Assembly: GCA_938074335.1 (NCBI GenBank)
Contig: CALJEL010000028.1
Coordinates: 1 to 49,248 of the forward strand
Direction: 5' to 3'
Origin: an uncultured bacterium
GTDB lineage: Bacteria; Nitrospirota; Thermodesulfovibrionia; Thermodesulfovibrionales; CALJEL01
Length of the DNA: 49,248 bases
Shown piece after piece: positions 5,669 to 30,266 of this stretch. Below the pieces are notes generated by a model, which saw nothing but the letters and a program-made list of their open reading frames with translations, was not told where the DNA came from and searched no databases. The stretch's first letter is position 1; each line of letters begins with the position of its first letter. The position numbers and the translations under genes were made by a program.

Positions 5669-6652
5669 TCAGGTCCTGTTTATGGCATAACGCTCTCTCA
5701 ATCCTAACAGTATCCTTGCTAAAAGCAAAAGCATTGGTAGTTCTACAACAGGTCCAAGTATAATGGCAAGATATACAAGGGGATGACCCGGAAAGGCTGC
5801 TACAGCAACTCCAATTACTGCCTCGGAGTTTCTGGCGGTGGTGGTGAAGGCCATTGTAACAGTATCCTCATAACCAAGTTTGAAGAGCCTGCCGATTATT
5901 AAGGCAAGGATGAATAAAACAAAGAAAAAGGCTATCAGAAAGAGGATGAGAAGTCCAACCTTGTTAATATCAGAGATATCAAGGGATCTCTGCGATATAA
6001 ACATGCTCATGATTACAATCACCAGTGCCCAGAGCTTGACCTCTCCCATAGCAGACTTAAAGGGACCAAAAAAGTAATCACGGCCCTTTTTATTGATCAC
6101 AATCTTTTGAACAATATAGGCAAGGACAAAGGGAGCAACAAGAAAGAGTGCCACACTTCTTATGAGTGTTGAAAGTTCAACAGGGATGACCTTCCCGACA
6201 AGTATATAAAGATAAAGCGGCATCAGTATAACCTGCAGGGTTATGTTCCATGGAAGCAGGGCAATGCCCCAGGGCACATCTCCTTTTGCGATGTCTGTAA
6301 AGATAAGGTACCAGCCTATGCATGGAGTGAGGGTATAGAGAATGGCTCCTGCCCAGAAGTCCGGATAGTTTTTAAGGATCAACCAGCCCATTGTCCATGA
6401 GAATGCCGGGATGAATATGAAGTTGACAAAAAGGGCTATTGCTGTGGGCTTTATCTTTTTAAAGGCCCTTCCCACATCCTTTATCTCCACAGGAAGCATT
6501 ACCGCAAAGATCACGAAAAAGACGCCAATCTCTGTAAGATAAATCAATTGAGGGATCTCTTTGCCGATAAGCCGCTGGATGAGTATTCCAAGTACTACAG
6601 CACCTATCAGTATAAAGGGCTTTTCCCTGTCCTTTGTTGATAGCCTTGCCAT
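5669..6652 (-). CDS. ACR3/BASS-superfamily permease, possible second arsenite exporter
   Basis: A 327-residue protein with about ten hydrophobic segments. The stretch LTPCIGWYLIFTDIAKGD matches the position of the ACR3 motif around the essential Cys (APCxAMV in classical ACR3), and ATTTARNSEAVIGVA matches the second conserved half. It is clearly related to the ACR3 gene at the other end of the operon but divergent. It sits between arsM and the ADP-ribosylglycohydrolase gene. It may export arsenite, a methylated arsenical or another anion; the substrate is inferred from context only. Confidence 0.7.
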   Translation of the reverse strand: MARLSTKDREKPFILIGAVVLGILIQRLIGKEIPQLIYLTEIGVFFVIFAVMLPVEIKDVGRAFKKIKPTAIALFVNFIFIPAFSWTMGWLILKNYPDFWAGAILYTLTPCIGWYLIFTDIAKGDVPWGIALLPWNITLQVILMPLYLYILVGKVIPVELSTLIRSVALFLVAPFVLAYIVQKIVINKKGRDYFFGPFKSAMGEVKLWALVIVIMSMFISQRSLDISDINKVGLLILFLIAFFFVLFILALIIGRLFKLGYEDTVTMAFTTTARNSEAVIGVAVAAFPGHPLVYLAIILGPVVELPMLLLLARILLGLRERYAINRT

Positions 6653-6694: not shown

Positions 6695-7492
6695 TTAATA
6701 AATTTGTAGAGGCTTGATTCCATAAACCTTGATACTAACAATAGGAACCTTTCTACCTTCAGGGACTGCTACATTATTAGCCATTAATTCAACAGGAAAG
6801 GCTGATTCATCTATTATCCTGACCCCTTGAAACCCGGCATTTTTTATTGCCTTTATATAATCATCCTTCATTACTGCCCCAGCGAGGCAACCAATATAAG
6901 CCTCAATGGAGTTTTTTATAGATTCCGGCAGTGCCTCTACCAGTACAATGTCAGATACCATCAGTCTTCCACCTGGTTTCAATACCCGAAAGGCCTCTGC
7001 AAAAACTCTATCCTTGTCAGGCGAGAGATTTATAACACAATTTGAAATAATAGCATCTACATGGTTATCAGCAACAGGCAGATTCTCAATCTCTCCGAGT
7101 ATAAATTCCACATTCTCATATCCACCTTTTCTGGCATTTTCTCTTGCCCTTTCAATCATCTCTGGTGTCATATCCACTCCTATTACCTTGCCTCTTTTAC
7201 CAACCCTTTGAGCGGCAAGAAAGCAATCAAATCCAGCACCTGAACCAAGGTCAAGGACCACCTCACCTTCTTTTAAGGATGCAAGGGCAACAGGATTTCC
7301 ACAACCAAGACCTAAATTCGCACCTTCAGGAAGACCTTTAAGCTCTCCTTCAGAATATCCAATCTTCTTACTGATTTGAACAATATCAACTGTTCCACAG
7401 CACGATTGTGCAGGACCACAGCAGGAGCCTCCCTGTATAGCAATTCTGGCATATCCCTCTCTTACGACCTTCTTTACCTCTTCTTTCTTCAT
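6695..7492 (-). CDS. arsM: Arsenite S-adenosylmethionine methyltransferase ArsM
   Basis: A 265-residue SAM-dependent methyltransferase that converts As(III) to methylated arsenicals. Visible features are a Cys-rich N-terminus (SCCGPAQSCCG), the ArsM-typical YSEGEL...GLGCGNP segment with a conserved Cys, the SAM motif LDLGSGAGFDCFLAA, motif II IGVDMTPEMIERA, and SNCVINLSPDK carrying another conserved Cys. The order matches known ArsM proteins. It lies 24 bases downstream of arsA. Methylation may detoxify arsenic or produce volatile species. Confidence 0.9.
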   Translation of the reverse strand: MKKEEVKKVVREGYARIAIQGGSCCGPAQSCCGTVDIVQISKKIGYSEGELKGLPEGANLGLGCGNPVALASLKEGEVVLDLGSGAGFDCFLAAQRVGKRGKVIGVDMTPEMIERARENARKGGYENVEFILGEIENLPVADNHVDAIISNCVINLSPDKDRVFAEAFRVLKPGGRLMVSDIVLVEALPESIKNSIEAYIGCLAGAVMKDDYIKAIKNAGFQGVRIIDESAFPVELMANNVAVPEGRKVPIVSIKVYGIKPLQIY

Positions 7493-7516: not shown

Positions 7517-9349
7517 TCAAAGCAGTCTCACCGCCTCCTCAAGCATCTTCAAGCCCCTTATCTCACTTCCCATCATGGGGAACTGAAGCACAGGGAGTTT
7601 GAATTTATCATTAATCTCTCTAAGGTAACGCATCTGCATTGCCCTTCTGCTTTTAAAGAAATCATTTGTGCAGACCTCTTCAGGAAGTATGAGGTTTGCA
7701 ATAACAAGCTGTGTCTCTATCCCGGCGTCTTTTAAATCAAGCATTGCCCTGTAAGATTCAAGTATAGGAGTGGATTCAGGATAAAGGACAAGGCTAAAGA
7801 CTGTGCGGTCTTTGTCTTTCAATATATTGATTATTTCCCTGAACCTGTTCTGTGTTGCCTCTTTTGCCTGAAGGGCCTCCTGTGTGGATACCATCATCTC
7901 TACCTGGCGTGCATAATCAAAGGGAAGACTGAGGAGCCTCAGTGTATGACCTGTGGGAGCTGTATCAAAGACAATCAGATTATAATCCCTTCCTTCAATA
8001 TACTGAATAAATTTATCGAAGGCTGCCATCTCCTCTGTGCATGGAGAGTTTAATTCTTCTTCCATGGCCTTGATCATGTCCTCTGAGTATTTACCCCTTG
8101 CATCATTTAATACCCTTTCTTTATATTCCCTGAATGCCTCCTCTTGATCAACCATCACTGCAAAAAGATTTTCAGTAACCTTTACGGGAATGCTTCCGAT
8201 CTTTACATCAAGGACCTCTCCTATATGTGCAGCAGGGTCTGTTGTTACAAGTAAGGTCTTAAATCCTCTCTGTGCTGTATAAAGGGCGGTAATGCAGGAT
8301 ATGGTTGTCTTACCGACACCGCCCTTTCCTGTAAAGAATAATGCCTTTGTGCCCTTTATGGGAATCCAGAGTTTGTTTATATCCGGTTTTGTAAGAACTG
8401 GCACAGATATTTGTGCAAGATCAATCTTTTCTTTAAATTCTGGCCTGACGCCATTGAATAACTCTTTAGCTATACTCTTGAGGGTCTCGATACCCTTGAC
8501 CTCATTGTTTCTTAAAAACATATATCGCTTTGGCCTATCAAGAGCCACTTTTGCCTTCTCAATCACACTTTGCTGGGATTCATATTTCTTTTTAAAGAAA
8601 TCAATCTCGCAGACCTCCTCTGGCAGTATCCCGTTTATGATTATCTCTCCTGATTTAACACCAATCGTCTCGAGCTCTTTTGAAGCCCTTATTGTTTCAT
8701 AAAGCGAGAGTTCCTCGGGCCTCATGACGAATATAAAGGTTGTCCTCTCAGGGTCTCTTAAAAGGGCTGTTGCCCTGTCATATTTTTCCTTTGATTCCTG
8801 AATCGTCTGAACAGGACCAAGGCAGGTCTGGCCAGTTCCCTTTGCTGATTCTTCTATATGTTTTGACCAGTCAACTGGTAGCTCCAGGAGCCTTATGGTG
8901 TGGCCTGTTGGAGCGGTGTCGAATACAATGACATCATATTCATCTGTCTCCATAAAATCTATGAATCGGTCAAAGGATGCCATCTCTGTAGTGCAGGGAC
9001 CACTTAGTTGTTCATCAATTGAGGCGATTACATCCTCGGGCATAATCTCCCTGAAAGGAGCTATTATCCTCTCCTTATATTCTCTTGTTGCCTCATCAGG
9101 GTCTATCTCCATGGCATAGAGGTTATCAATACCTTTAATCGGAGTTATCCTGTGTCCTATCTCCTGTTCAAAGACATCGGCAAGATTTGAGGCAGGGTCT
9201 GTGGTAACAATCAGAGTCTTTTTGCCCTGTAAGGCATAGTGTATTGAAGTGGCAGATGCCATGGTGGTCTTACCAACACCACCCTTGCCTGAGAAAAAGA
9301 TGTATTGGGTGAATCGGTGAATCGGTGAATTGGTGAATTGGTTATCCAT
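7517..9349 (-). CDS. arsA: Arsenite-translocating ATPase ArsA, tandem two-domain form
   Basis: A 610-residue duplicated ATPase. Each half has the deviant Walker A GKGGVGKTT (residues 21-29 and 341-349), the switch DPASNLADVF or DPAAHIGEV, and the signal motif DTAPTGHT. Cysteines 119, 176 and 437 stand where E. coli ArsA binds arsenite (Cys113, 172, 422). Family knowledge: ArsA energises efflux with a membrane partner, here probably ACR3, and receives As(III) from ArsD. The N-terminus has about 14 extra residues (MDNQFTNSPIHRFT) encoded by a tandem 8-bp repeat. Its start overlaps the upstream gene as TAATG. Confidence 0.93.
   Translation of the reverse strand: MDNQFTNSPIHRFTQYIFFSGKGGVGKTTMASATSIHYALQGKKTLIVTTDPASNLADVFEQEIGHRITPIKGIDNLYAMEIDPDEATREYKERIIAPFREIMPEDVIASIDEQLSGPCTTEMASFDRFIDFMETDEYDVIVFDTAPTGHTIRLLELPVDWSKHIEESAKGTGQTCLGPVQTIQESKEKYDRATALLRDPERTTFIFVMRPEELSLYETIRASKELETIGVKSGEIIINGILPEEVCEIDFFKKKYESQQSVIEKAKVALDRPKRYMFLRNNEVKGIETLKSIAKELFNGVRPEFKEKIDLAQISVPVLTKPDINKLWIPIKGTKALFFTGKGGVGKTTISCITALYTAQRGFKTLLVTTDPAAHIGEVLDVKIGSIPVKVTENLFAVMVDQEEAFREYKERVLNDARGKYSEDMIKAMEEELNSPCTEEMAAFDKFIQYIEGRDYNLIVFDTAPTGHTLRLLSLPFDYARQVEMMVSTQEALQAKEATQNRFREIINILKDKDRTVFSLVLYPESTPILESYRAMLDLKDAGIETQLVIANLILPEEVCTNDFFKSRRAMQMRYLREINDKFKLPVLQFPMMGSEIRGLKMLEEAVRLL
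9311..9342. repeat. Four tandem 8-bp units inside the arsA 5' end
   Basis: Two copies of GAATCGGT are followed by two of GAATTGGT (plus strand). They encode the extra N-terminal residues of ArsA, so this low-complexity repeat lies inside a coding sequence. Since 8 is not a multiple of 3, successive units are read in different frames. Confidence 0.85.
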
Positions 9350-9711
9350 TAAAAATTCCTCCTGCTATGGATTAATTTAGTGAGCATCGCTCCAATCTTG
9401 TTACATCGACTTTCAAGATCATCAAATATTATTTCGTTTATATAGTCTATTTCTCTCGCTATCTCTAACTGAGTTCTCAGTTCAGCAAGTGAGCCCTTAG
9501 CAATCATGAGAAATCTTATGAAATCCTTATTACTATAGCGCTCATAGCCCTCAGCTATATTAGAAACTATAGAGACCGATGATCTATTCATCTGTTCTTT
9601 TAAGCCAGAATCTTTTAAAAATTTTCCTTGAGCAGTTAATTTATAAATGTCGATAGCTAAAGCCTTTGCTTCTTGCCACACTTTCAATTCTTTGAAACTC
9701 TGATAACTCAC
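9349..9711 (-). CDS. Four-helix-bundle protein (23S rRNA intervening-sequence protein family)
   Basis: A 120-residue protein with the family's N-terminal FKELKVWQEAKALAIDIYKLT, the central NRSSVSIVSNIAEGYER and the C-terminal arginine and leucine-rich helix. These helical-bundle proteins occur inside 23S rRNA intervening sequences and as free genes; their function is unknown. Finding one inside an ars operon, flanked on both sides by 8-bp tandem repeats, suggests insertion as a small mobile or hitchhiking unit. Confidence 0.8.
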   Translation of the reverse strand: MSYQSFKELKVWQEAKALAIDIYKLTAQGKFLKDSGLKEQMNRSSVSIVSNIAEGYERYSNKDFIRFLMIAKGSLAELRTQLEIAREIDYINEIIFDDLESRCNKIGAMLTKLIHSRRNF

Positions 9712-9786
9712 CCCTTCACCTCTTCACCTCTTAACCTCTTAACCTCTTAACCTCTTAACCCCTTAACCCCTTCACCTCTTCACCTT
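9708..9786. repeat. Tandem 8-bp repeat array (TTAACCTC-type)
   Basis: About nine degenerate octamers, such as TTAACCTC, TTAACCCC and TTCACCTC, run between the selenoprotein candidate gene and the four-helix-bundle gene. They overlap the start of the latter by a few bases. There is no coding potential across the array. Confidence 0.9.
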
Positions 9787-9795
9787 CCTTTACTC

Positions 9796-10086
9796 TCAGC
9801 CACAGCATGAAGTTTGCGGCATGCCGATTATAATAAATCCACGATCATCAGAATAATCTATGGTTGCTCCTGAGAGCATATTACCTGCCATTTTTTCCAG
9901 AAACACCCTTAAACCATCTCTTTCAATGGTTATATCCTGATTCTCAGGTTCTTCGGCTATGTCCATAGCCAGTGACGGACCTCAGCCCCCGCCTGCTGTG
10001 AATATCCTTATACCATAATTATCAGCCTTATGTTCTTTAAGAATATCCTTAAATTTCTGTACAGCATTGGTGGTTATTTCAACCAT
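9796..10086 (-). CDS. HesB/IscA-like selenoprotein candidate (Sec35, UGA)
   Basis: The frame from ATG 10086 (AGGAGG 8 bases upstream) to the stop at 9796-9798 encodes 96 residues with one in-frame UGA at codon 35 (9984-9982). The protein matches the upstream paralog on both sides of the UGA: GIRIFTAGGG-U-GPSLAMDIAEEPEN against GIRIFQAGDG-C-CGTPGLGLDAAETPEN. Codon 35 corresponds to Cys35 of IscA, a cluster or metal ligand. The sequence after the UGA stays conserved and open and ends PQTSCCG. A SECIS-like hairpin follows the UGA. HesB-like selenoproteins are known from bacterial selenoproteome surveys; one in an arsenic operon is notable. A standard gene caller would miss or split it. Confidence 0.85.
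9955..9984 (-). promoter_or_regulatory. Candidate bacterial SECIS element
   Basis: Right after the UGA (9984-9982) come 11 bases, then a perfect 6-bp stem GGCTAT/ATAGCC closing the loop GGAC. The loop begins 17 nt after the UGA and starts with two G's. This fits the general bacterial SECIS model (apical loop about 16-37 nt from UGA, with a G in the first loop positions). An alternative pairing GTCC/GGAC overlaps it. Confidence 0.7.
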
Positions 10087-10124
10087 CTGAAAACCTCCTG
10101 TGTTTATTATTTAGTGCCATGATT

Positions 10125-10436
10125 TTAATTGCATGCGCCACTGCCGCATTCGGAAGAGCGGGGCAGACCGCTTATGCTAAAACCAGACCCTTCACTATAA
10201 TCTATCACTGCATTATCAAGCAGTTCTGTAATTGAGCCATCCACATAGATCTTTAATCCATCTTTTTCTATGATCATATCTCCATTTTCCGGAGTTTCAG
10301 CTGCATCAAGACCAAGGCCTGGTGTGCCACAGCAGCCATCACCCGCCTGGAATATACGAATGCCGTAATGTTCAACATTGTTATCAGCAAGGATCTTTTT
10401 AAACCTGTTTATGGCTGATGGGGTTAGATTAAGCAT
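10125..10436 (-). CDS. HesB/IscA-like protein, Cys form
   Basis: A 103-residue HesB/IscA-fold protein. Family members bind iron or [Fe-S] clusters and deliver them. Cys35 (and Cys36) in AGDGCCGTPGLGLD matches IscA Cys35, but the C-terminal CGCG of IscA is replaced by ECGSGAC (Cys97, Cys102). It is the paralog of the UGA-containing gene that follows 38 bases downstream. Being in an ars operon, it could repair clusters damaged by As(III) or bind arsenite through its thiols; both are inferences. Confidence 0.8.
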   Translation of the reverse strand: MLNLTPSAINRFKKILADNNVEHYGIRIFQAGDGCCGTPGLGLDAAETPENGDMIIEKDGLKIYVDGSITELLDNAVIDYSEGSGFSISGLPRSSECGSGACN

Positions 10437-10472: not shown

Positions 10473-10811
10473 TTATTTTACCTGCAGTGTCATTGGCTTC
10501 TGAGCTAACGGCTTAATGCCAAGGGCATCACACAACTCTTCATATGATGGATACTGGCCGGTCTTGAAGACCTTACCGTTTACAATAGTTATGGGGAGTA
10601 TCTTTTTTCCGTTCTTTGTAAGCAATGACCTTACCTCTGGATTTGACATAAAGTCCTTTGGCTGCTGTGCAAGGTTGAACCTTTCAACCTCCACACCCTG
10701 TTTCTTCAACGCCAGTATGGCATCATTCATTTTCACCAGAACAGGGTCAATATTGGGGCCGCAAAGTCCTGATGAGCAGCATAATGCTGGGTCGAAGATT
10801 TGAATCTTCAT
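10473..10811 (-). CDS. arsD: Arsenite metallochaperone ArsD
   Basis: A 112-residue thioredoxin-fold ArsD. The N-terminal FDPALCCSSGLCGPNIDP carries Cys11, Cys12 and Cys17, equivalent to the Cys12-Cys13-Cys18 triad that binds As(III) and passes it to ArsA. The middle shows the family's FNLAQQPKDFMSNPEV and LPITIVNGKV. The start overlaps the stop of the upstream Usp gene by 4 bases. The C-terminal cysteine pairs found in some ArsD proteins are absent. Confidence 0.92.
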   Translation of the reverse strand: MKIQIFDPALCCSSGLCGPNIDPVLVKMNDAILALKKQGVEVERFNLAQQPKDFMSNPEVRSLLTKNGKKILPITIVNGKVFKTGQYPSYEELCDALGIKPLAQKPMTLQVK

Positions 10812-11728
10812 AGCGTTACCTCCTTAAGACATTTTTCACTCTTTATAAGTAATACGGGTCTGTCGCTGTATTCAACAACATTCCTTGATACAGAACCCCA
10901 GAGGATTCCCTCTACATATCCCTTTCCATGTGTACCCATTATGATCATGGTTATATCCTCCTCACGGGCAATCCTCATAAGATCAGACGCTGGCCTGCCA
11001 ATTTCAAGTCTGAGCTTTACCTTAAAGCCTGATTGCTCAAGTTCTTTCTTAACCGCCTCCAGCCTTTCCATGTCCTCTTTTTCAAACTCTTTAAACTTTT
11101 CTGCGGGCTGTAGTCTCATTGCCTTTTCATTCATCACATGGGCAACCACTACCTCTTCTACTTCCGCATCCTTCAATCCCTTAAGATACTGAAGGGTAAT
11201 CTTTGCACAGTCTGACCAATCTGTCGGATAAAGGAGCCTTTTGAACATATTCTTGCATATCCTTTCGCATTCCGCCTTTGAGGCACCAAAGGCAGCTGGA
11301 TATTTAGGTATAAATACAGGAATGTCTCCATAGCGTATGATCCTGTCGGTGTTTGAACCAATAAATATCTCTTTTAGAGGACTCTTTTTCTGTCTTCCTG
11401 AGACAATCAGAGATATTCCGGGCTCCTCCTCTACTACCTTCAGTATCTCCCTGTAAGGTATGCCTACTCTAATTATCTTTTTTGGCCTGAGACCTGCTTC
11501 TTCCACAATCTTTATAGCCTCTTTCATCTTCTCTTCAGCAATTGCCTGAAGGGACTCCACATCTCTGGTGGAGTATCCTTCATATTTATCCATTGGCAGT
11601 TTTGAGACATCAATGACATGAACAAGGACAATCTCCTCTGTACCAATGCTTTTAAAGTCAAGGATACATCTGAGCAGATCAAGGGAAAACTCCTCAAACT
11701 TAATAGGATAAAGTATCTTTTTATACAT
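10808..11728 (-). CDS. Tandem universal stress protein (UspA x2)
   Basis: A 306-residue cytoplasmic protein with two Usp domains, about 1-145 and 158-300. The second keeps the ATP-binding motif GTHGKGYVEGILWGSVS (GxxGx9GS); the equivalent in the first (SGRQKKSPLKEIFIGSNTD) is degenerate, so probably only one site binds nucleotide. It lies 2 bases after acr3 and overlaps arsD, so it is part of the arsenic operon. Usp genes in ars clusters occur elsewhere, but their role is undefined. Confidence 0.85.
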   Translation of the reverse strand: MYKKILYPIKFEEFSLDLLRCILDFKSIGTEEIVLVHVIDVSKLPMDKYEGYSTRDVESLQAIAEEKMKEAIKIVEEAGLRPKKIIRVGIPYREILKVVEEEPGISLIVSGRQKKSPLKEIFIGSNTDRIIRYGDIPVFIPKYPAAFGASKAECERICKNMFKRLLYPTDWSDCAKITLQYLKGLKDAEVEEVVVAHVMNEKAMRLQPAEKFKEFEKEDMERLEAVKKELEQSGFKVKLRLEIGRPASDLMRIAREEDITMIIMGTHGKGYVEGILWGSVSRNVVEYSDRPVLLIKSEKCLKEVTL

Positions 11729-11730
11729 GA

Positions 11731-12783
11731 TTATCTCCTCCCTTTAAAGAGTCTATACTCTGTATTTTTTGCAAACCAGACAAGGGCAAGCATGACAGGC
11801 ACCTCAATCAGCGGACCAATAACTGTCGCAAGCGCCACGGTGGGATTAAATGCCGTTATTGCTATTGCTATTGCTATCTCAAAATCCCTTCCTGTTGAAT
11901 TGAAGCCTACAGCCACGGCATCTTCATAATTCAAACCGAGCTTCCAGCTAACAAGATATACAACAACAAACATGGTCCAGAAAAAAAGGGTCATGGGTAC
12001 TGCCATCTGAACAATAAACATGGGTTTTTCAAGTATTAAGTCACCTTTCAGGGCAAACATCACAACAAGAGTAAACAAAAGTCCTATAATGGACATGGTA
12101 TCAAGATAGAATTTCAATTTATGAAACCATTCCTCTCCAAATCTTTTCACGCCCAGAAACCGTGTAAGCATCCCGGCAACAAGCGGTACACCGAGATAAA
12201 GAAGCACGCTTTCACCCACCACCCAAACATCAAAATGGATATTGCCAAGCAGCAGCTTTGCATAAACAGGTATGAGGATCATCTGAACAATAGAGTTCAA
12301 TGCCACCAATACTATAGCAAGGGGCCCATTTCCTGCTGAAAGATAGGTAAAGACGATAACCATCGCAATACAGGGTGCAAGACCATAAAGGACAAGCCCT
12401 GTGTATAAATCCTGTTCACCACTCAGGAATATCTTTGCAAGAAGGAGCATAAAGAACGGTGCGATGGAATAGTTGAAGAACATAACGATAAGGAGCTGTT
12501 TTGGCGAGCGTGTTGCCTTTCCAAGGTCCTCAAACTTTATATTCGCCATTGCCGGATACATCATCATGAAAAGGCCCACAACTATGCCAAGGGCAAGGGT
12601 GTTTCCTATGCTGAACTGATAATTGCCATGAAAGATAGACTTAATGGCATCAATCGGAGGCGTTAGTTCAAAATTTGAAATCCCGTACCACTTGCCAATC
12701 GCAATGCCTATGGCCATACTTACAATTACAAAAACTGGCAACAGCCTGAAGTTGTGAAGCTTTTCGAGAAATCTTCTGATCAT
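11731..12783 (-). CDS. acr3: Arsenite efflux permease ACR3
   Basis: A 350-residue, ten-helix permease of the ACR3 (ArsB3) family. The signature GLAPCIAMVIVFTYLSAGNG contains the essential Cys of helix 4, and FNSTGRDFEIAIAIAI matches the helix 9-10 region. It exports As(III) across the inner membrane, probably helped by ArsA. Three bases separate it from arsR. It is the closer match to classical ACR3 of the two related permeases in this operon. Confidence 0.9.
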   Translation of the reverse strand: MIRRFLEKLHNFRLLPVFVIVSMAIGIAIGKWYGISNFELTPPIDAIKSIFHGNYQFSIGNTLALGIVVGLFMMMYPAMANIKFEDLGKATRSPKQLLIVMFFNYSIAPFFMLLLAKIFLSGEQDLYTGLVLYGLAPCIAMVIVFTYLSAGNGPLAIVLVALNSIVQMILIPVYAKLLLGNIHFDVWVVGESVLLYLGVPLVAGMLTRFLGVKRFGEEWFHKLKFYLDTMSIIGLLFTLVVMFALKGDLILEKPMFIVQMAVPMTLFFWTMFVVVYLVSWKLGLNYEDAVAVGFNSTGRDFEIAIAIAITAFNPTVALATVIGPLIEVPVMLALVWFAKNTEYRLFKGRR

Positions 12784-12786
12784 TTC

Positions 12787-13191
12787 TTACCTCCACATAC
12801 CATCTGATTTTGGTTTCAGTAGAACCTCTATCCTGGCTCCTCTATTTTTAAGGAATTTTTCCAGCCTCTTTTTGTCTTCCCTTACTTCCTCTTCAGAAAT
12901 CCTTTCAATTACAGAAAGTACTAAAAATCTCTTAAACATATCTGACTCGTCGATACTGTAATGAATCCACTTTCCCTGTTTTCTGTCCTTAATCAATCCC
13001 GCTTCTTTTAATACCCCGAGATGAAAGGATACCTTCGGTTGAATCATATCCAGGGCAGCAACAATGTCACATACGCAGAGTTCTCTCTGCTCAAGGAGCT
13101 TCAGTATCCTTAGCCTTGTCTCATCAGAAATGGCCTTGAACAAAATAGTTAACTGGTTGATTTGTGAATGAGTGATTTGATTCATGGCCAT
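12787..13191 (-). CDS. arsR: Arsenic-responsive repressor ArsR
   Basis: A 134-residue ArsR/SmtB winged-helix repressor, first gene of the operon. The metal site ELCVCDI has Cys39 and Cys41 in the recognition-helix position used by classical As(III) sensors. It is followed by the helix-turn-helix PKVSFHLGVLKEAGLIKDRKQGKW. The N-terminal residues MAMNQITHSQINQL come from low-complexity sequence similar to the octamer repeats; a start at the second ATG is possible. It presumably represses its own operon by binding the inverted repeats upstream. Confidence 0.92.
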   Translation of the reverse strand: MAMNQITHSQINQLTILFKAISDETRLRILKLLEQRELCVCDIVAALDMIQPKVSFHLGVLKEAGLIKDRKQGKWIHYSIDESDMFKRFLVLSVIERISEEEVREDKKRLEKFLKNRGARIEVLLKPKSDGMWR

Positions 13192-26721: not shown

Positions 26722-27387
26722 ATGTCAAAAAAGTACGCATTGCTTGTTGACCTGAGAAAGTGCGTTGGTTGCACATCCTGTCAGGTAAGCTGCAAGATGG
26801 AAAATGCAGTGCCGATAGGGCAGTTCAGGTCAAGGGTGGATATTGCGGATACAGGCGAATATCCGAAACCGAAGAGGTATTTTTTACCAAAGATTTGTAA
26901 TCAGTGCGACGAGCCGCCGTGCATCCTTCCGTGTCCTGTGAAAGGCGCCACTTACAAAAGGGAGGACGGAGTGGTAATGGTGAACAGGGATCTCTGCATC
27001 GGCTGCGGAAGGTGTGTAGGTGCATGTCCTTATGGAGCGAGGTTTTTACATCCCCATATCCCTGTCAAGAATGACCCTTCAAAATATGCTAAGGATGTTC
27101 CTGAAGTCAGGGGGAAAAAGGCAAAGGACTTAAAGGTTGTTGACAAATGTGATTATTGCAGCCACAGGCTTGCAGAGGGCATTGAGGAGCCTGCATGCGT
27201 GAGAAACTGCATGGGTAGGGCAAGGGTATTTGGCGATCTCAGTGATCCAAACAGTGACATATCAAAGGCCATCAAGGCACTAAAGCCTGATGTCCTACAC
27301 CCTGAATATGGCACCAAACCGAGGGTATTCATCGTGGCCCCTGACAAAGAGGTATTCAAGGCCGCTGATGGCCACATAAATAGATAG
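26722..27387 (+). CDS. Four-cluster ferredoxin subunit of a molybdopterin oxidoreductase
   Basis: A 221-residue PsrB/PhsB/ArrB-type electron-transfer subunit. Four cysteine groups bind four [4Fe-4S] clusters: CVGCTSCQVSC (C14-C24), CNQCDEPPCILPC, CIGCGRCVGAC, and CDYC with a later ACVRNC. There is no signal peptide, so it would be exported together with the Tat-tagged catalytic subunit. GAAAGGAGGATG upstream of ATG 26722 is a strong ribosome binding site. The catalytic subunit follows 11 bases later. Confidence 0.9.
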   Translation: MSKKYALLVDLRKCVGCTSCQVSCKMENAVPIGQFRSRVDIADTGEYPKPKRYFLPKICNQCDEPPCILPCPVKGATYKREDGVVMVNRDLCIGCGRCVGACPYGARFLHPHIPVKNDPSKYAKDVPEVRGKKAKDLKVVDKCDYCSHRLAEGIEEPACVRNCMGRARVFGDLSDPNSDISKAIKALKPDVLHPEYGTKPRVFIVAPDKEVFKAADGHINR

Positions 27388-27398
27388 GAGGTATATAC

Positions 27399-30266
27399 AT
27401 GGAAATCACAAGACGGTCCCTTTTGAAGTATGCAGGAGTGTTAGCTGGTTTAGCTGCATTGGAGAAGACAGGGCTTATGTCCTTGAGGCATCTGTCTCCC
27501 TCTGAGGCAGAGGCAGTAGAGAAGGCTATGGGTCAGTATGAGATTAAGTACAGCGCTTGCTGCATGTGTCCAAGTGAGTGTGGATTAGAGTTCTGGGTAA
27601 AAGACGGTAAGGTTCACAAGATATACGGCAATCCAAATGTGCCCTATAACGATGGTATTGTCTGTGCCAAAGGCGCCTCTGGTATGCAGTTGATATACTC
27701 CCCTGATAGGCTGAAGTATCCCATGATACGCACAGGCGAGAGGGGCTCAGGTAAGTTCAAGAGGGTATCCTGGGAGGAGGCCATTGATTACATTGGCAAG
27801 AAACTAATAGATATCAAGAAGAAATACGGCCCTGAGTCTGTAATAATGGACACAGGCGATGTGACTGACAGAGACCAGTATTGGAGGCTCTTTTATGCGT
27901 ATGGCACACCAAATTGCGTTGAACACGGTTCTATATGCGATACCCCAAGGAGGCATGGGCCTAAGTTAATGGTAGGTGGTAAGCGTTGGGAACCAGACCT
28001 GATGAGGCCAGTGTACGTCAGACAGCCTGACGGAAGCCTGAAAAAAGATATGTCCTACAAGACAAAGCTCATCATCTACTGTGGATGGAACCCCTTTGTG
28101 GCTACCAGGATAATGTATGAAAACAGAGGCACTGTGGGTGCAAAGGTTGAAAACGGTTGTAGATATTTTGTCATTGACCCAAGCTATTCAAACACGGCCG
28201 CACTGGCAGACAAGTGGATTGCCCCAAGGCCTGGCACTGACAATGACATCTTTGCTGCAATGCTACGCTACATTCTGGAAAACGACGACCAAAACAATCC
28301 AGACAAGAAATATATAGACTGGAACTTCAAGAAGTACTCAAAGGGTTGGGATGACTTTGAAAAGGCCTTTAAGTCCTGGTGGCATAAGAAAGACCCCATC
28401 AACAACCTCGAATACTTCAGCGTAAAGTGGGCTGCAGACAGGGCTGGGATAAAGGAAGAGGAAATAGTTGAGCTTGCCCATACCTTTGGAATTACAAAGC
28501 CTGCTGCCCTTGTATGGGGTATGCAGTCACCTGGACATCATTACAACGGTTACTGCGGCTCTATCTTAGGTGTAGCCCTCAATGTGATTACAGGCAACTT
28601 TGATGCACCAGGTGGTATCATTGACACTGAGATAATGAAGTGGAGCAAGGGAGGCAAGGGCAGGCTCTTCTCATGGGTTGAAAACAAGAACTTTAACGAT
28701 AGGATAGTAAAGCGGACCATCAATGGCAAGGAGGTAGAGGGCAAGCAGTCTGAGCTTCACAAAGACCATTACGGCAGCAAGTACCCTGCTGCATGGGACG
28801 ATGTGGTTGGTGACTATCCGGAATTCTTTGAAGGTAAGGAGGTGGAGATAAGATACGGTGCTTTCAGGGGACACAAGTATCCAATCAAGGCATACATACT
28901 AAGGACAGGTAACACCGTAGTCAGTGGCTCTGCTACATGGAGATGGCGTGAGGCAATGACTGCAAAGGATGCAAAGGGCAACTACAAGCTCGAACTCATA
29001 GTATTTATCGACACCTTATACCTTGAGAGTGCCCTTTATGCTGATGTAATACTACCTGAGGCAAGCTACGCCGAAAGGGTGAGCTGGTCTGACATATATC
29101 CACCAATGCCCCTTGGATACTTAAGGGATGCCGTAATCAAACCACTTCATGAGTCTAAGAATCCTACAGAGATAATGAACCTGATTGCCAAAAAGCTCTA
29201 TGACCTTGGCGACAGGGACATAAAGCCCGGTGACTTTTGGGAGCGTTACAAAGACGAAGACACCTTTGCCACAGACCTCATCCTTGGCACCCCAGGGAAG
29301 CCCAATATCGGCACCCCCTTACCCTATCCACAGTATCCTGAGGGATATATATTGCGTGGCACCCCAGATTCCCTTGAAAAGGGCAATGTGAAAATAGACC
29401 ACGAAAAGAAAGAGGTTGTGGGCGAGCAGGTTACACCTGCATGGATGCGTAAGAATAAGGGCGTAGCAATATGGCCAATGAGCTGGTACAGATACAAGTG
29501 GACTACCAAAGAGGAGCCCCACAAGATATGGCCCCCTACGGACTCAAAGCTCATAGAGTTTGTATGGGACTACACCGATGGTGATAAGCGCAAAGGGAGA
29601 TACTCCAAATACAATGTGCTCATAGAAAAGGCAGGTGGAGAAGTGCCTAAGGGGCTTAAGGAGATCGGCTTTGATAAGTTCCCATCCACATTCTACTGGT
29701 TTGAGACAAAGTGGAATCCCTATACAAACCCTGAGTATAAAAAATACGCCAAGGACTATCCCTTCCAGCTCATCACCGGCAGGATACATCACGCTATGAC
29801 TGGTACGCAGATGATCCCATGGCTTGGAGAGATAAAGGCAGAGGGCTTATGGCAACCAATGAACGATGAGTTTGAGGCAGAGATTCCCGAAGCAATGCCT
29901 ATGGGTAAAGACCCCATGAAGACCATGAAGGTAAGGTTTAAGGCAAACACCTTCTCTGTAGGCACCATATGGATGAACAGTGATGATGCAAAGAGGTTGG
30001 GCATTAAAACAGGTGATCTCGTAATTGTAGAAAATCCCCTTGGAAAGTCTACAAAGGGCAAGGTCTTTGCCTCTGGGGGCATAAGGCCTGGCGTTGTAAA
30101 GATTGCCTTTGGCTCAGGCGGTAGGTTTAGCCCAGGACTCGGTGTTGCTTACAAGAGCAAGGATTATACGCCGGACTGCAACAATCTCGTTGACCCTGAG
30201 GCGCTAAGTCCGATTATGGGACAGTGTGCGTATGCGGACATGATGATAAGGGTTAAAAAGGCATAA
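27399..30266 (+). CDS. Tat-exported molybdopterin oxidoreductase catalytic subunit (Psr/Phs/Arr branch)
   Basis: A 955-residue DMSO-reductase-family enzyme. The N-terminus has a Tat signal (TRRSLLK, then hydrophobic residues 11-21). C54-x2-C57-x3-C61-x27-C89 binds a [4Fe-4S] cluster, and Cys180 in EHGSICDTPRRHG is the likely molybdenum ligand. C-terminal MopB-binding motifs include ITGRIHHAMTGTQ and NSDDAKRLGIKTGDLV. Candidate substrates are polysulfide, thiosulfate, tetrathionate, arsenate or selenate. Against canonical ArrA: no Arg-Tyr pair about 28 residues before the ligand Cys, and Arg instead of the expected Lys five after it. Codons look enriched in AAG and ACC relative to neighbours, suggesting high expression. 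Confidence 0.88.
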   Translation: MEITRRSLLKYAGVLAGLAALEKTGLMSLRHLSPSEAEAVEKAMGQYEIKYSACCMCPSECGLEFWVKDGKVHKIYGNPNVPYNDGIVCAKGASGMQLIYSPDRLKYPMIRTGERGSGKFKRVSWEEAIDYIGKKLIDIKKKYGPESVIMDTGDVTDRDQYWRLFYAYGTPNCVEHGSICDTPRRHGPKLMVGGKRWEPDLMRPVYVRQPDGSLKKDMSYKTKLIIYCGWNPFVATRIMYENRGTVGAKVENGCRYFVIDPSYSNTAALADKWIAPRPGTDNDIFAAMLRYILENDDQNNPDKKYIDWNFKKYSKGWDDFEKAFKSWWHKKDPINNLEYFSVKWAADRAGIKEEEIVELAHTFGITKPAALVWGMQSPGHHYNGYCGSILGVALNVITGNFDAPGGIIDTEIMKWSKGGKGRLFSWVENKNFNDRIVKRTINGKEVEGKQSELHKDHYGSKYPAAWDDVVGDYPEFFEGKEVEIRYGAFRGHKYPIKAYILRTGNTVVSGSATWRWREAMTAKDAKGNYKLELIVFIDTLYLESALYADVILPEASYAERVSWSDIYPPMPLGYLRDAVIKPLHESKNPTEIMNLIAKKLYDLGDRDIKPGDFWERYKDEDTFATDLILGTPGKPNIGTPLPYPQYPEGYILRGTPDSLEKGNVKIDHEKKEVVGEQVTPAWMRKNKGVAIWPMSWYRYKWTTKEEPHKIWPPTDSKLIEFVWDYTDGDKRKGRYSKYNVLIEKAGGEVPKGLKEIGFDKFPSTFYWFETKWNPYTNPEYKKYAKDYPFQLITGRIHHAMTGTQMIPWLGEIKAEGLWQPMNDEFEAEIPEAMPMGKDPMKTMKVRFKANTFSVGTIWMNSDDAKRLGIKTGDLVIVENPLGKSTKGKVFASGGIRPGVVKIAFGSGGRFSPGLGVAYKSKDYTPDCNNLVDPEALSPIMGQCAYADMMIRVKKA

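Follow-up and report, generated by a model that had tools for sequence, protein, structure and literature searches.

A HesB/IscA-like gene with a probable UGA-encoded selenocysteine in a Nitrospirota arsenic operon

The window analysed here, a stretch of 49,248 nucleotides from the genome of an uncultured Nitrospirota bacterium, carries an arsenic (ars) operon in which a small HesB/IscA-like gene contains a single in-frame UGA. Judging from comparative sequence evidence, this codon is almost certainly decoded as selenocysteine by the SelA, SelB, SelD and tRNA-Sec of the host, with a hairpin downstream of the UGA serving as the SECIS element, and the gene is not a pseudogene. It seems that this group has drawn selenium into its handling of arsenic, and the arsenic-operon subfamily of HesB-like selenoproteins to which the gene belongs appears to be new. 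HesB-like selenoproteins have been listed for some twenty years without a function, and the company of arsC, ACR3, arsD and arsA would provide a first concrete, testable assignment.

The selenocysteine gene and its operon

Read on the minus strand from 10086 to 9796, the gene translates as MVEITTNAVQKFKDILKEHKADNYGIRIFTAGGG-U-GPSLAMDIAEEPENQDITIERDGLRVFLEKMAGNMLSGATIDYSDDRGFIIIGMPQTSCCG and then reaches a UGA stop of its own, the frame being open on both sides of codon 35 (Table 1). The sequence-only reading of this DNA, which had described one in-frame UGA flanked by intact frame, is thereby confirmed, as is its remark that the residue number is shared with the adjacent paralogue, whose first cysteine is residue 35. 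The protein scores 39.3 bits against PF01521 (Fe-S biosynthesis), above the Pfam gathering cut-off of 26.3. It falls under the cut-offs of both models for HesB-like selenoproteins, TIGR01911 (31.6 < 66.35) and NF038090 (46.9 < 85), and under those of the IscA, SufA and ErpA equivalog models. An AlphaFold2 model of the protein (mean pLDDT 89.5), in which the C-terminal tail is weakly modelled (block pLDDT 53), matches the fold of E. coli IscA in the PDB with a TM of ~0.75, and at the level of the predicted structure an IscA/A-type fold is shown.

The genes of the cluster lie on one strand in the order arsR, ACR3, double Usp, arsD, Cys HesB, Sec HesB, IVP, arsA, arsM and a second SBF/ACR3-like permease. 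The selenoprotein gene had been placed between arsD and arsA; the position holds, but it is one of three genes found there, together with the Cys HesB paralogue and the IVP gene. In the tree described below, the Cys paralogue groups with ars-linked Cys HesB genes from other genomes.

Several further features of the neighbourhood were recorded. A two-domain universal stress protein is frequent between ACR3 and arsD in these Nitrospirota ars operons, and the IVP gene also stands between arsD and arsA in G012, G053 and G029, where it is 66-98% identical. Tandem repeats of an 8-base unit stand on either side of the IVP gene, with 9.5 copies of ACCTCTTA at 9710-9785 and 4.4 copies of GGTGAATC at 9308-9342, the latter extending into the first arsA codons. 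Elsewhere in the window, the respiratory arsenate reductase ArrA was considered for a 955-aa molybdoprotein (27399-30266) but is not claimed, its best NCBIfam matches (PhsA, DMSO family and ArrA) lying far under cut-off; the Fe-S partner of this molybdopterin oxidoreductase (26722-27387) is likewise far under the cut-offs of these NCBIfam models.

Table 1. Coordinates of the ars operon genes in the window and of the elements of the selenocysteine gene
Feature	Positions	Strand	Remarks
Second SBF/ACR3-like permease	5669..6652	minus	
arsM-type arsenite methyltransferase	6695..7492	minus	NF008823, 360.8 bits (cut-off 263)
arsA, arsenite-pump-driving ATPase	7517..9349	minus	two ATPase halves
Four-helix-bundle 23S rRNA intervening-sequence-type (IVP) protein	9349..9711	minus	inside ars operon
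HesB/IscA-like selenoprotein gene (predicted)	9796..10086	minus	96 residues, Sec at codon 35
Bacterial SECIS-like hairpin, GGCUAU-GGAC-AUAGCC	9955..9970	minus	starts 11 nt after the UGA
In-frame UGA, codon 35, almost certainly read as selenocysteine	9982..9984	minus	TGA in 27/27 Sec homologues
Good ribosome-binding site, AGGAGG	10094..10099	minus	7 nt upstream of the Sec-gene ATG; read from sequence
Cys paralogue, HesB/IscA-like	10125..10436	minus	103 aa, motif GDGCCGTPGLGLD
arsD, As(III) metallochaperone	10473..10811	minus	NF033727, 127.3 bits (cut-off 90)
Double universal-stress-protein (Usp) domain protein	10808..11728	minus	recurs in Nitrospirota ars operons
ACR3-type arsenite efflux permease	11731..12783	minus	262.8 bits, slightly below the TIGR00832 cut-off of 282.8
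ArsR-family repressor	12787..13191	minus	

Evidence for selenocysteine decoding

Sec-type members of the subfamily, recognised by the motif U-(G/S/R)-PSL(A/T)M, were collected from relatives and GTDB contigs (n = 27). Nearly all are from Nitrospirota, and those assigned to an order are Thermodesulfovibrionales; one belongs to a Thermoleophilia MAG that also encodes selA and selB. The codon matching codon 35 of the window gene is TGA in all 27 and TAA or TAG in none. Other stop codons or frameshifts at this point in relatives had been named as a sign that would tell against selenocysteine; none was found, and a frameshift or pseudogene reading of the gene was rejected.

Exchange between cysteine and selenocysteine, which had been anticipated for this alignment column, does occur within the same operon slot, but as Cys-Cys for Sec and not one for one. 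Where the Cys homologues read GGCCGPSLAMD, the Sec genes read GGUGPSLAMD, such that the Sec codon replaces a vicinal cysteine pair and the Sec form is one codon shorter. In a tree of 58 sequences, built on a short alignment and with many forks open, Cys and Sec sequences intermingle, and at least seven Sec/Cys changes are required. Every subfamily member keeps the ligand at position 35 together with at least two cysteines in the C-terminal tail, in the form of CC, CxC or a Cys-rich tail.

The genome of the window holds a second Sec HesB gene (G000:C38:15023-15304; L025, L073), with the motif URPSLAMD and located away from ars genes; it has the same hairpin with one G-U pair, and an orthologue in G001. 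Two other groups of Sec HesB genes occur in the same order, L076-L086 and L087-L089, with the motifs GGGUSTSYGLD and GGGUGCGPSYG respectively. Their downstream hairpins differ, and arsA, arsD, ACR3 and arsC are absent from the 3 kb tested around them.

The hairpin itself, reported earlier as a 6-bp stem with a GGAC loop 11 nt past the UGA, was confirmed as GGCTAT/ATAGCC at 9970-9955. Within it, the Sec genes use invariant codons, namely Ala GCT (24/24), Asp GAC (26/26), Ile ATA (26/26) and Ala GCC (23/23), against a background use for the same amino acids elsewhere in the same genes of 21%, 40%, 53% and 24%, respectively, although the rows are related and these fractions, if multiplied, do not give true probabilities. 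Equally conserved residues nearby are encoded by mixed codons (Pro 8/8/7/4, Ser 13/9/3/2 and Asp51 17/10). In three genes (L070-L072) A40T is accompanied by A44V, so that one G-C pair becomes A-U, and one other Sec gene shows the G-U intermediate at this pair. Across 25 distinct sequences, 99.4% of cells are paired compared with 14-43% when the partners are slid, which rules out a chance hairpin, and the covariation score was matched by 2 of 500 shuffles. Counting double-changed pairs, of which there is one, does not by itself set the alignment above the shuffles (202/500), because four of the seven pairs never vary. A SECIS arising as a by-product of protein conservation was also ruled out, given that the codons are frozen beyond the residues and that A40T goes with A44V.

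Among Cys homologues from ars clusters the structure decays: L056 has the loop GGAU and one G-U pair, in L058 a pair is broken and the loop altered, and L059 and L101 both carry the loop GUCC, the stem of L101 still being perfect. The hairpin of L101 has the appearance of a residual SECIS, such as has been described for a Desulfitobacterium HesB gene (PMC1794560). On the strength of these alignments, selection acts on the hairpin as RNA; codon freezing, the slid and shuffled controls and the decay in Cys homologues all support the earlier identification of a bacterial SECIS.

The selenocysteine machinery, on whose presence the sequence-only reading had made its claim depend, was found in full in the genome of the window. 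SelA (600 bits), selB (399 bits) and selD (310 bits, and itself with one in-frame TGA) all score above their curated cut-offs, and a tRNA-Sec was detected both by Infernal (76 bits) and by ARAGORN (anticodon UCA). There is also a second match to the tRNA-Sec model (G000:C110:2178-2292; 57.7 bits), above the gathering score and without an ARAGORN tRNA call. In a survey that combined a set of the Sec-HesB genomes with Cys-form and HesB-free control genomes, selB was present in 25/28 and selA in 25/29, the selA of G082 being partial. Neither selA nor selB was found in three of the surveyed Nitrospirota genomes, G079, G131 and G445, all of which have a tRNA-Sec(UCA). Because this tRNA is still there, an absent contig is likelier than loss of the two genes, although a recent loss may have taken place in G079, since a Cys copy is present in the same operon.

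These observations bear on the opposing view, in which the UGA is a true stop and the locus a pseudogene, or a gene cut short, next to a Cys paralogue that still works. Such a paralogue adjoins the Sec gene both here and in G079, and the three genomes with undetected selA and selB would fit; against this stand the 27 homologues with TGA only and a frame intact to the end, the frozen hairpin codons with their coordinated double change, the sel genes in the genome of the window, and the tRNA-Sec retained even in G079, G131 and G445. We consider a true stop highly improbable.

Arsenic linkage across the clade and on plasmids

One or more of arsA, arsD, ACR3 and arsC lie within 3 kb of 21 of the 30 'PSLAMD' HesB loci of Nitrospirota (20/29 without the window locus), compared with 0/21 other HesB homologues taken from the same survey (Fisher p = 1.7e-7, uncorrected for relatedness). 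The arsenic link of the subfamily is, in terms of gene neighbourhood, shown to be clade-wide, and the tie between this selenoprotein and arsenic genes proposed for the window is supported beyond the single operon. The order arsD-HesB-arsA recurs with Sec in G079, G166 and G082 and with Cys in G114 and L101; G059 and G194 show it as well, their HesB being of a more remote Cys type. Other subfamily loci adjoin a thioredoxin-type arsC or ACR3. Nine of the 30 loci, including the second copy of the window genome on contig 38, are away from ars genes, and seven lie beside sufC-/sufB-like genes. In the sister operons of G012 and G053 the order ACR3-Usp-arsD-IVP-arsA is kept without HesB. Judged by gene content, the HesB protein is an accessory, non-essential part of the ars operon, because some sister operons with the same order do without it.

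The presence of a HesB gene within an ars operon has a Cys precedent in print: the ars1 operon of Bacillus sp. CDB3 includes the HesB-like orf7 (PMC4562236, PMC5481582). In a plasmid collection, ars operons of Planococcus, Sporosarcina, Priestia, Lysinibacillus, Alicyclobacillus and Stenotrophomonas were found to carry Cys HesB genes, placed after arsA, after trxB or after a dual-specificity phosphatase. Some of these genes (L200:5001-5285 and similar, at the ends of ars operons of Bacilli) are labelled 'adhesin', an evident misnomer.

A homologous gene is unannotated in the PLSDB table, itself incomplete, for five Cytobacillus plasmids (NZ_CP062791, NZ_CP107028, NZ_CP097350, NZ_CP085393 and NZ_CP015507), and it occupies the same ars-operon slot in both of the plasmids examined. 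The copy on NZ_CP062791 (L202:3995-4270), the one in which codon and hairpin were read, has one in-frame TGA at the position of the Cys-Cys pair, followed at a SECIS-like distance by a 7-bp stem with a UGGAU loop; selB was not found on the plasmid itself. The sequence makes it likely that this is a second, independent ars-linked selenoprotein, in Bacillota. Annotation evidently misses arsenic-linked HesB genes, with the NCBI selenoprotein models falling short, the Cytobacillus copies unlisted and Cys relatives called 'adhesin'.

Possible roles and relation to known systems

In the role that we favour, Sec35 and the C-terminal cysteine pair would form a predicted three-chalcogenolate pocket that binds As(III) in the cytosol. 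As the ligand positions and the neighbouring genes suggest, the captured As(III) could then be handed to the efflux branch formed by ArsD, ArsA and ACR3; a selenolate would make capture faster and tighter than a thiolate, in an anaerobe. Three thiolates are the ruling chemistry for As(III), since the As(III) site of ArsD consists of Cys12-Cys13-Cys18 (PMC4562236). A literature search on IscA with arsenite returned nothing on this mechanism. The same three ligand positions serve A-type proteins for binding iron or Fe-S, and the As(III) pocket is therefore not singled out by ligand conservation. Against an As(III) role there are also the nine of 30 loci found off ars genes and the seven beside sufC/sufB-like genes, which point to iron-sulphur work. 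We regard the whole chain, from Sec decoding through to an As(III) mechanism with ArsD and ArsA, as a serious possibility that falls a little short of being probable.

The main alternative is a selenoprotein for Fe-S protection, that is, an arsenite-resistant A-type carrier, induced with the ars genes, that assembles, delivers or repairs clusters at times when thiolate scaffolds come under As(III) attack. The IscA fold with its three conserved ligand positions and the seven suf-adjacent loci are consistent with this role, as is the ~2.4-fold rise of hesB and SUF genes in SAR11 exposed to DMA (PMC6426599); most members, however, keep company with arsC, ACR3 or arsDA and not with suf genes, many of them have, in place of the classical C-terminal CxC of A-type proteins, CC or a tail rich in Cys, and a generic carrier has no need of a place between arsD and arsA. 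We hold such a carrier to be conceivable, if doubtful.

A selenol redox function, in which Sec35 and the C-terminal Cys pair would form a selenenylsulphide that passes electrons to arsenate reductase or repairs oxidised ArsC or ArsD, is in our view unlikely. Several members do adjoin a thioredoxin-type arsC, in Bacilli HesB comes after trxB, and a redox function is presumed for most selenoproteins (PMC13188914), but a UxxC/CxxU redox motif is absent, the fold is not thioredoxin-like, and the Cys forms retain two adjacent cysteines, as metalloid-binding sites do.

Returning to As(III) binding, the existence of an ars-linked clade suggests a metalloid-ligand role for selenocysteine. Extended to all the cases above, this could tentatively be read as a widespread, hitherto unrecognised ars-operon As(III) chaperone of the IscA fold, existing in Cys-Cys and Sec forms, with Sec as the metalloid ligand. 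Nitrospirota and Bacillota (the Cytobacillus plasmids) would then each have gained or kept Sec on their own. If true, this use of Sec would connect selenium and arsenic directly, at the biochemical level, in bacteria.

As the sequence-only reading had stated, HesB-like selenoproteins as such are already known; they were described in early prokaryotic selenoproteomes with the motif UxGP and function unknown (PMC1794560, PMC13188914, PMC11097638). A literature search found no HesB selenoprotein tied to an ars operon, the most relevant papers on selenoprotein neighbourhoods lying outside that search. Arsenic-related selenoproteins of other kinds have been described, namely the ArsM fusions NF041536/NF041537, SaoB/SaoC and ArsC-like proteins (PMC13188914). 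These too place Sec in proteins tied to a metalloid, but their folds and operons differ and none is of the IscA type between arsD and arsA. With ArsD the window protein shares the operon, a small size and a cluster of three thiol/selenol ligands that should suit As(III), whereas the two are unrelated in sequence and family (PF06953 for ArsD, PF01521 here). With IscA, SufA and ErpA it has in common the match to the E. coli IscA fold, the ligand at position 35 and a C-terminal Cys pair, and it differs from them in having Sec for Cys, a C-terminal CC in place of CGCG and an ars linkage. Bacillus sp. CDB3 orf7, known by description, and its plasmid relatives resemble it as HesB-like genes in ars operons, mostly with arsD and arsA; theirs, however, are Cys-Cys forms (except in Cytobacillus) that follow arsA, whereas the window gene has Sec and stands between arsD and arsA, and these plasmid relatives are only ~33% identical to the window protein. 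The HesB-like selenoproteins of TIGR01911 and NF038090 share with it the IscA fold, Sec at the first ligand position, a bacterial SECIS and occurrence in anaerobes, while the subfamily of the window is set apart by its motif U-G/S/R-PSLAMD, with one residue fewer, and by its clade-wide link to ars genes.
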